From Lentisphaerae bacterium GWF2_49_21 (GTDB lineage: Bacteria > Verrucomicrobiota > Lentisphaeria > Victivallales > GWF2-50-93), in the NCBI GenBank assembly GCA_001804805.1, contig MHBH01000066.1, forward strand, positions 1 through 64,000: a stretch of 64,000 bases of DNA, read 5' to 3'. The translations under genes and the position numbers were made by a program. Shown here piece after piece: positions 45,558-55,081 of the stretch. Within the stretch, counting starts at the first letter, position 1. Every line of letters begins with the position of its first letter. The notes beneath the pieces were generated by a model, which did no database searches, had not been told where the DNA came from, and saw only the letters and a list, made by a program, of their open reading frames with translations.

Positions 45558-45567
45558 TTTCCAAAAA

Positions 45568-45676
45568 GTAGGTACGCCCTTTAGGGTGTACCATTCTTCT
45601 CTCCGTTTCTCAATTCATGGTACAGGCTTCCGTCTTCGTCCAAGGGCTACGCCGGACACAGAAAGCCCGTACCTAC
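45568..45676 (-). repeat. GTAGGTACG-family unit, interrupted copy
   Basis: The unit runs from gtaggtacgccctttagggt to cccgtacctact and is nearly identical to the copy at 48137-48212. It contains an extra 32-33 bp palindrome at 45629-45660 where the other copy reads caggctgaagcccg without interruption. Confidence 0.75.
45629..45660. repeat. Small palindrome inserted into another repeat
   Basis: The inserted word is tccgtcttcgtccaagggct followed by acgccgga and a few bases. Its layout (TCCG-CTTCG-n-AGGGCTACG-CGGA) resembles the CCGCCATAGCT...AGCGACGGCGG units found in the pseudopilin genes. Confidence 0.65.
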
Positions 45677-45720
45677 TCAATTCAGTGACAGCCGAGACGG
45701 CTGTCCTACATTCTTAACAC

Positions 45721-48057: not shown

Positions 48058-48120
48058 GTAGGTACGTGCTTTAGCATGTACCATCTTCAATTCATGGTAC
48101 AGGCTGAAGCCCGTACCTAC
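48058..48120 (-). repeat. GTAGGTACG-family unit
   Basis: This copy reads gtaggtacgtgctttagcat then gtaccat, a spacer, and atggtacaggctgaagcccg then tacctac. The arms pair as an inverted repeat. Confidence 0.7.
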
Positions 48121-48136
48121 TCAATTCGTGGACTTA

Positions 48137-48212
48137 AGTAGGTACGCCCTTTAGGGTGTACCATTCTTCTCTCCATTTCCCAATTCATGGTACAGGCTGA
48201 AGCCCGTACCTA
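48137..48212 (-). repeat. GTAGGTACG-family unit, intact copy supplying a stop codon
   Basis: This intact copy ends at the stop of the gene at 48210: on the minus strand ...cacgaagTAGgtacgggct, so TAG is part of the repeat end. Confidence 0.7.
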
Positions 48213-48794
48213 CTTCGTGATCAGCTTGAACTCATTGAGCCAGAGCGTCGGGGTCTTGTTCTCCTCGGTCTTTCCTATGAGTATGCATATGAGCTTGGCA
48301 GGGCCATGCCACTTGCCGTCGTTCGCTCCGCCCCAGTTCTCATATTTCTTCACTATTTCCGCCGCCGGGGAGTTCGCTTTTTCAGCAAGATAGGATCCGA
48401 GGTCGAAGTTCACCTTCTGCCAGTCAGGGGAATTCTTGATCTTGAAACTGATCTGGTGGCACTGGTCGCCGCTGTCGATGATCCTTATGGTCAGATGCGA
48501 TGAGCCGGGATATTTTAAGAGGAACGATATCGTGTTGACTTCGACGTTGTCGAGCTTGATCTTCGTCTCGACATAGTTTCCGCCGTTCGTAAAATTGCCT
48601 TCAAGCTTCAGAGCGTCCTTATCGGCGGCATCGATGCTGAGCTTTCCAGTGGCTCCGGGGAATTCCTGCCCGTTGTCGAACGTCCAGCCGTAGTTTTCAG
48701 CCGACTTGTCGCTTGTCAGGTTCTTTTCTCCGGCATAGACGATTCCGACCATGGCCGCCACCATCGCCACAATGATCAAATTTAGTTTCTTCAT
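48210..48794 (-). CDS. Secreted single-module carbohydrate-binding-like protein
   Basis: The 194-aa protein has a signal peptide (residues 1-21) and one beta-sandwich module nearly identical in pattern to residues 25-197 of the 1450-aa hydrolase: NYGWTFDNGQEFPGATGKLSIDAADKDAL, CHQISFKIKNSPDWQKVNFDLGSYLAEK and YENWGGANDGKWHGPA. It has no catalytic domain. It is probably a stand-alone sugar-binding protein working with the hydrolase encoded next. GGAGGAACAGG precedes the ATG. The stop codon TAG is formed by the first bases of a GTAGGTACG repeat. Confidence 0.85.
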   Translation of the reverse strand: MKKLNLIIVAMVAAMVGIVYAGEKNLTSDKSAENYGWTFDNGQEFPGATGKLSIDAADKDALKLEGNFTNGGNYVETKIKLDNVEVNTISFLLKYPGSSHLTIRIIDSGDQCHQISFKIKNSPDWQKVNFDLGSYLAEKANSPAAEIVKKYENWGGANDGKWHGPAKLICILIGKTEENKTPTLWLNEFKLITK

Positions 48795-48857: not shown

Positions 48858-48921
48858 AGTAGGTACGCCCTTTAGGGTGTACCATCTTCAATTTATGGGA
48901 CAGGCTAAAGCCCGTCCCTAC
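48858..48921 (-). repeat. GTAGGTACG-family unit after pseudopilin 3
   Basis: The unit (gtaggtacgccctttagggt ... gcccgtccctac) begins 2 nt after the pseudopilin 3 stop on the minus strand. It is preceded at 48833 by cttgactatgaacatgtttc. Confidence 0.65.
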
Positions 48922-54059: not shown

Positions 54060-55081
54060 GACACAAAATTGCCAATTGCCAATTGCCGACGCGTCCCTCG
54101 AAGCCACATGGGCGAAGTGGGATTGCCGATTTGAAATTAGAAAATAAAATCGGAAATCGGAAATCCGCCGTCGCTAAGAAGCTATGTCGGACGCAGTCGG
54201 AAATCGGAAATAAATTCACTCTAATCGAGCTACTCGTGGCCGTGCCCCCCGTAGCTGCCCCGTGTCTGCGGGGAGCGACTGTGTCCCCCATAGCTCCTTG
54301 GCGACGGGGGAAGGGGAGAGCAATCTCAATCAGGTTCACACTGATTGAGTTGCTCGTGGTAATTGCGATCATCGCAATTCTCGCGGCCCTTCTCCTTCCT
54401 GCCCTGCAGCAGGCGAAGGAACAGGCCTACAGCGCCGTTTGCCTGGGCAACCAGAAACAGAACGGGGTCGCTTTCGCATGCTATGCCGTGGATTTCAATG
54501 GATGGACGACCGGCTCAAACATCTGGATAGGGCCTGCCTGGGGGGATTTTAAAAAGTGGTCTCAGCTGTTTCAGGGCTCAGGTTCACTGGACTATATCAG
54601 TTCCAGCAAGAGGGATGTCCTTTTCTGCCCCAAGAACAACCAAGGCCCCTACGCAGGCGGGAACTATGGTGTCTACGATGGAGATTCCAGCTGGGCGAAT
54701 CCTGCTTATCAGGATCGCAAATATCTTGTCTACGACCATGATTACTCATGGTACTATTATCCTTCTAAAATAAAACAGCCTGACAATTATTTCTGGCTCG
54801 GATGCACTTCCGCCGCAGGAATATGGAGGCAGGAGTTCTATACCGGCTGCCAGGGATTCCGTCCCGCCATGTTCTGGTCGGGAGGAAGCTGGGACCAGCA
54901 GGGGCTCTGGATGGCACACGGCGGCGTAAACGGCATCTTTGTCGACGGCCATGCGCAGACCTGCATGGGCGCCGATCTCCTTAACGTCGGAAACCACCGC
55001 AGAATAACAGATCCGGGTTCAGGACAGCCTGGAGGAATCCGGGCATGGAAAACTAAAAAAGGCGTTGCGGTGACCAATTGA
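54056..55081 (+). CDS. Pseudopilin 5 with duplicated FTLIELL motif and repeat-derived leader
   Basis: The start is ATG 54056 (GGAAGGAGG 5 nt upstream, overlapping the regulator stop), giving 341 aa. The leader of about 53 residues is unusually long; its DNA holds phrase repeats (aaatcggaaatcggaaat) and a palindrome (54164-54191). FTLIELL occurs twice, 40 codons apart, with a Pro/Arg-rich insert. The second copy continues into [23 protein letters not shown]. The C-terminus has the [14 protein letters not shown] hallmark. Confidence 0.88.
54164..54191 (+). repeat. CCGCC-type palindrome in the pseudopilin 5 leader
   Basis: The word tccgccgtcgctaagaagct followed by atgtcgga is the inverted form of the intergenic copy at 52310 (cccgccatagctcttagcga). 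Confidence 0.65.
54215..54355 (+). repeat. Double in-frame palindromic insert in pseudopilin 5
   Basis: FTLIELL copies lie at 54215-54235 and 54335-54355, offset by 120 nt. The insert has two units: ccccccgtagctgccccgtg...cggggagcgact (54244-54280) and tcccccatagctccttggcg...acggggga (54283-54312). Confidence 0.75.

Follow-up and report, generated by a model that had tools for sequence, protein, structure and literature searches.

REP hairpins in the genome of Lentisphaerae bacterium GWF2_49_21 and of its sister species show precise insertion polymorphism at their apices, caused by a short palindrome that we call P1. P1 is probably a nonautonomous, REP-like mobile hairpin of about 33 nt, inserted precisely into the apex loops of REP hairpins without duplication or loss of target nucleotides. 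The data support other REP hairpins, and specifically their loops, as its unusual target; its movement we infer from the polymorphism between genomes. The spread of REP-type hairpins is still known largely by inference, because elements so short rarely leave clean sites before and after insertion. Here, the fixed apex of hundreds of near-identical host hairpins serves as a built-in insertion reporter, and orthologs yield exact junctions.

The window, i.e. the whole analysed stretch of 64,000 nucleotides (contig MHBH01000066.1, positions 1 to 64,000), belongs to the genome designated G000; G001 (the sister species), G002 and G003 are other genomes of the same genus. P1 is a 33-nt hairpin at 45629-45661; it occupies the right-arm loop of a GTAG-type REP pair. 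Its plus strand letters are TCCGTCTTCGTCCAAGGGCTACGCCGGACACAG; the minus strand reads CTGTG followed by TCCGGCGTAGC..GACGAAGACGGA, a 5-nt head and a 28-nt palindrome. Each host unit is an inverted pair of hairpins, GTAGGTACGCCCTTTAGGGTGTACC ... GGTACAGGCTGAAGCCCGTACCTAC, and GTAGGTACG occurs seven times in the window (0.07 expected) and 178 times in the genome. The features are as follows:

45568..45592, plus strand: left arm of the host REP pair, GTAG and hairpin with empty 12-nt apex (GTAGGTACGCCCTTTAGGGTGTACC)
45619..45676, minus strand: right arm of the host REP pair (inverse REP), GTAGGTACGGGCTTT, 33 nt, AGCCTGTACC, with 45-nt apex
45629..45661, minus strand: P1 insert, 33 nt, head CTGTG and hairpin TCCGGCGTAGCCCTTGGACGAAGACGGA; absent in the G001 ortholog
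48058..48120: third REP pair, arms 48058-48082 (plus) and 48096-48120 (minus), both empty
48138..48162, plus strand: left arm of the near-identical unit, apex empty
48189..48213, minus strand: right arm of the near-identical unit, empty site GTAGGTACGGGCTTCAGCCTGTACC
48859..48921: fourth REP pair, neither arm with an insert
54164..54196, minus strand: second P1 copy of the window, hairpin 54164-54191 and head CTGCG

The first-pass annotation had described two almost identical units, the first of them interrupted by a palindrome. Comparison of 45566-45678 with 48136-48214 bears this out, with 97% identity over the first 63 aligned nucleotides, the second unit starting at 48138 rather than at 48137. 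The interruption amounts to exactly 33 extra nucleotides, which have no counterpart in the second unit, where the junction reads GGCT|GAAGCC. One further difference lies in the loop, CTTT in the filled and CTTC in the empty unit (minus strand). An Rfam scan of the region gave no match near the gathering score.

The second P1 copy of the window is outside any GTAGG hairpin, between the flanks TTTCCGA^TTTCCG. In pilin-like (N_methyl) genes at 54164-54345 of the window and at two other loci (L033, L054), P1-like palindromes are found in frame close to the N-terminal end; they sit between two copies of the FTLIELL motif, and the orthologous stretch of G001 is without palindromes. Such an arrangement recalls the palindromic elements within Rickettsia genes.

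As an addition to the first-pass annotation, the host units can be identified as REP pairs that have a RAYT gene of their own. REP/BIME elements are likewise built of hairpins preceded by a GTAG tag and arranged in inverted pairs (PMC2817692, PMC3733652). Both properties of GTAG-type REPs were found: the GTAG hairpin is multicopy, and a Y1/RAYT gene (contig C9, 37025-37336) lies between matching REPs, with GTAGGTACG REPs directly adjoining it on both sides. The REPs beside this cognate gene are empty of P1. Near the gene, single REPs form tandem arrays with a spacing of 40-41 bp (L023, L111; C9:37577-40538). G000 gave 20 Y1_Tnp matches, 18 of them over cut-off, and many of these roughly 20 transposase genes of one genome (L097-L116) are flanked by a distinct palindromic repeat of their own, such as GTTGGAGT..CTTTAG.., GTAGTAGCGC.., GTAACACAGGC.., GTAGCGCAGAC.. 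or GTAAGGCGGG... As the Y1 genes have different palindromic repeats at their flanks, G000 seems to hold many REP-RAYT systems simultaneously.

The P1 pattern matched 70 times in G000, the reversed-pattern control not once. Apex lengths of host hairpins in the sampled G000 loci are discrete, namely 12 nt (n=82), 35-36 nt (n=7) and 44-46 nt (n=38), in proportions biased by the selection of the locus sample partly by P1. The 45-nt class equals the 12-nt apex plus the 33 nt of P1, and the 35-nt class the same apex plus 23 nt of a second palindrome, P2 (CCTGTCCTGAGCTTGTCGAAGGA), in the same place. Of the 141 hairpins in the unbiased tiles of G001 (1.97 Mb), 126 are of the 12-nt class, nine contain P1 and one contains P2. 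Over whole genomes, a GTAG-tag hairpin pattern that covers empty and P2-filled hairpins gave 212 matches in G000, where its reversed control gave one, and 268 in G001. It follows from the tiles and the pattern counts that most host copies are empty, contrary to the possibility, raised with the first-pass annotation, that most copies are filled and the unit at 48137 is a deletion.

Mapping of junctions, as had been advised, gave a target-site rule. The insert in GTAGG hairpins is at the apex, CTTY^AG, and P2 uses the site of P1. P1 occupies the apex of other G000 families as well, for example ACAAACTTT^AGTTTGC and GTCGGGTTTT^AACCCGAC. Rule-based sorting of 69 strict P1 copies placed 35 in GTAGGnAC, five in GTTGGAGT and four in GTCGGG hairpins, the remainder being at GTAG^TNAA, TTCGA^T and mixed sites. 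When families were not named and only pairing of the two flanks was scored (stem score of at least 6), 59% of the own copies paired versus 15% with permuted flanks; the values for other taxa were 14% versus 2%, and beyond this genus and Bradyrhizobium only a minority of the P1 copies lie within hairpins. A fixed target word seems unlikely, since the 5' flanks vary (CTTT, CTTC, GCGA, GTAG, TCGA); what about 60% of own copies have in common is a position at a hairpin apex. At three loci (L044, L064, L117) nesting reaches three levels: P1 lies within a GTAGG REP loop, and the GTAGG pair in turn occupies the centre of a REP pair of GTAGTAGCGC type.

The P1 hairpin itself is imperfect. In 62 of the 69 own copies two mismatched positions change together, the combinations being C[G]TAG/GCGA[A]G and C[A]TAG/GCGA[C]G, which suggests that its internal irregularity is maintained. 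A full-text search of the non-subscription literature with the letters of P1 and P2 listed no paper on a bacterial repeat.

Orthologous sites were accepted when at least 300 bp aligned and the alignment extended well past the insert on both sides; shorter alignments (130-240 bp), to L178, L197, L198 and L201, probably reflect repeats and were set aside. The window has a syntenic counterpart in G001, whose orthologous intergenic region has the same REP unit and spacer without P1, with the loop GGCTGAAGCCC. Beyond the window unit, six orthologous arms are filled with P1 in just one of the two genomes, some in G000 and some in G001, and one, C32:201854, is filled in both. Sites filled in G000 are empty in G001 at C4:14246 (G001 reads GGGCTTTAGCCT), C33:5654, and C77:111537 and 112644, the last two with differing stems. 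Conversely, P1 is present in G001 at C97 (L224) and C98 (L208) and absent from the corresponding G000 sites, C3:41377 and C61. In the BIME L077/L372, the right arm is filled by P1 in G000 and by an element of about 290 bp in G001, whereas the left arm is empty in G000 and holds a different P1 in G001. Filled and empty orthologs with the same stem (C4, G001 C98, L372 left arm) differ by an insert of 32-34 nt, with no duplication or loss. Although losses in both genomes could mimic this pattern, gain is supported as the simpler reading, because most hosts are empty and P1 is independent of the GTAGG host. The original interpretation of the window units as a filled and an empty site thus gains support from the mostly empty hosts, the G001 ortholog without P1 and the polymorphism of orthologs in both directions.

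The 290-bp element lies in the same REP loops of G001 at several loci (L166:9120-9464 on C108, L178, L372), the site of the window ortholog included. Its ends are 16-bp terminal inverted repeats (TGTCTACTATACGCAT), and 11 bp of the target are apparently duplicated.

P1 also exists apart from the GTAGG hairpins, with eight copies in G002 and 14 in G003, genomes with no such hairpin. A cross-species scan, in which each species was represented by one genome, had among the matches listed Bradyrhizobium, Verrucomicrobia, Kiritimatiellae, Planctomycetes, Bacteroidetes, Acidobacteria, candidate phyla and others, conservation inside P1 being partly built into the scan, as the pattern fixes most letters. 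At least 14 stretches of viral contigs contained P1. The head is mostly CTGTG or CCGTG in G000 and CTTG or CCTG in most other taxa. Three genomes of the unrelated Bradyrhizobium provide an independent case, in which the REP GTAGGGTGGGCAAAGCGA^AGCGTGCCCAC (GCGA^AGCG) is empty in 63, 31 and 55 copies and enlarged by exactly 33 nt in 15, one and nine copies, respectively, one partly filled match of the third genome being set aside. The insert consists of CTTG and a 29-nt P1 hairpin, again without duplication. For Bradyrhizobium GTAG-14 REPs, PMC3733652 describes complementary 'loops' as long as 27 bp and treats them as loop variants; these long 'loops' are probably P1 insertions. Published 'long-loop' REP variants may be explained as insertions.

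As for the mechanism, we propose that P1 would move as single-stranded DNA, cut and joined in trans by a RAYT-like or IS200/IS605-like Y1/HUH nuclease. Its target would be a loop exposed where a REP hairpin is extruded on single-stranded DNA, for example on the lagging-strand template. The filled hairpin may afterwards be copied along with its host, as the same GTAG tag is still followed by a hairpin. The evidence for such an enzyme is circumstantial: Y1 enzymes make no target duplication and use mismatched hairpins, with which P1 agrees (PMC2817692, PMC8266576), and hairpin loops would offer them single-stranded targets. Y1_Tnp was over cut-off in 26 of 32 P1-bearing genomes versus five of 14 controls, which were unmatched for lineage; five of the 32, many genomes being drafts, had no Y1_Tnp at E 0.001. 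Inspection found none of the 20 Y1 genes of G000 flanked by P1, and searches by tblastn and with a home-made profile gave no Y1/RAYT gene close to P1 at 129 loci from other bacteria and from viruses. The characterised TnpA-REP cuts a CT or CA dinucleotide (PMC8266576), from which the 5' flanks of P1 (CTTT, GCGA, GTAG, TCGA) differ. The first-pass claim that the palindromes are, or recently were, mobile without encoding any protein holds; the enzyme acting in trans is our proposal, and recombination between copies may account for part of the spread. The hairpin-loop target rule lends itself to laboratory testing.

Certain filled hairpins are chimeric, with arms of different families or types and P1 at the breakpoint (L125, L134, L087, L078, L063). 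In addition, the filled arms at C77:111537 and 112644 differ in stem from the empty G001 ortholog, several filled hairpins are identical (GTGCTTCCCGTG class), and the filled window copy and its empty sibling are one loop base apart. All this would fit a history in which rare filled hairpins were spread by gene conversion or template switching, so that most filled sites are converted copies. We consider it unlikely as the general explanation, since the same-stem ortholog pairs listed above differ by the insert only, and since conversion inside one family leaves unrelated hosts (GTAGGnAC, GTTGGAGT, GTCGGG and the Bradyrhizobium REP) unexplained. The mixed-arm hairpins nevertheless suggest that P1 also marks points of recombination or template switching, and part of its spread may be due to conversion between copies. 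Alternatively, the host RAYT could move whole P1-bearing hairpins, P1 never moving alone. The RAYT gene between GTAGGTACG REPs and the presence of identical composites at several sites speak for such a composite unit; we regard it as improbable nonetheless, because P1 occurs at non-REP sites and in host-free genomes, and at the polymorphic orthologs it is contradicted, the host pair being present in both genomes with P1 as the sole difference.

Hairpin tops are prone to deletion, and the shared filled site C32:201854 could be a remnant of an ancestral REP with a long hairpin, the top 33 nt of which were lost repeatedly, for instance by replication slippage. Such a course of events is very improbable when about 90% of host hairpins are empty, those beside the cognate RAYT gene among them, when G000 and G001 are empty at different orthologs and when P1 is found without its host in G002, G003 and other phyla. 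Deletion was rejected as the direction of change on the empty majority, the bidirectional orthologs and the host-free P1. Insertion of P1 as a separate unit is the reading that we prefer. A broader one, which we offer tentatively, is that P1 (with P2) may represent a further pan-bacterial class of REP-like hairpins with a CYTG-type head, spreading singly, with no adjacent transposase gene and no fixed target word, and in some genomes homing to single-stranded loops of other REP hairpins, with nesting of up to three levels.

Cyanobacterial small dispersed repeats and the palindromic elements of Rickettsia are, like P1, small noncoding palindromes scattered in genomes. The rickettsial elements are noted for their in-gene location (PMC3733652). 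MITEs of DDE-type transposons differ from P1, which shows no target-site duplication at orthologs or in Bradyrhizobium. There are also features in common with REP, BIME and REPIN elements and their RAYTs: the host units are GTAG-tagged inverted hairpin pairs and flank a RAYT gene, and P1 itself is a short head with an imperfect hairpin. However, the P1 head is CYTG or CYGTG, so that P1 has neither the GTAG nor the CGTC terminal tag of the superfamilies of PMC3733652, and it lands in the loops of other REPs. No cognate RAYT adjoins it, in G000 or at the 129 other loci, unlike a RAYT-mobilised REP. The REPIN doublet has been argued to be the mobile unit (PMC3116915), whereas P1 inserts are single hairpins; were P1 to move on its own, the notion that mobility is restricted to REP doublets would have to be qualified. 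REPINs inserted into or beside REPINs have been noted (PMC3116915), as have REPs within palindromes in T. roseum (GTAG-23, with hundreds of target-palindrome copies), A. variabilis (GTAG-15) and H. neapolitanus (CGTC-1) (PMC3733652). These are likewise hairpin repeats inside other palindromes, but the available part of that paper gives no orthologous empty sites or exact junctions, unlike the case of P1. Insertion sequences that target REPs (PMC1525189) also use REP hairpins as insertion sites; they are full elements with transposase genes, whereas P1 is noncoding and 33 nt long. With the IS200/IS605 family P1 would share hairpin recognition and a single-stranded route, and it shares the lack of larger target-site duplications (PMC2817692, PMC6006769), its filled and empty orthologs and the Bradyrhizobium REPs showing insertion without duplication. 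It differs in that it encodes no transposase, has one hairpin instead of two, and seems to have in place of a fixed short target word a hairpin loop as the common feature of its sites.
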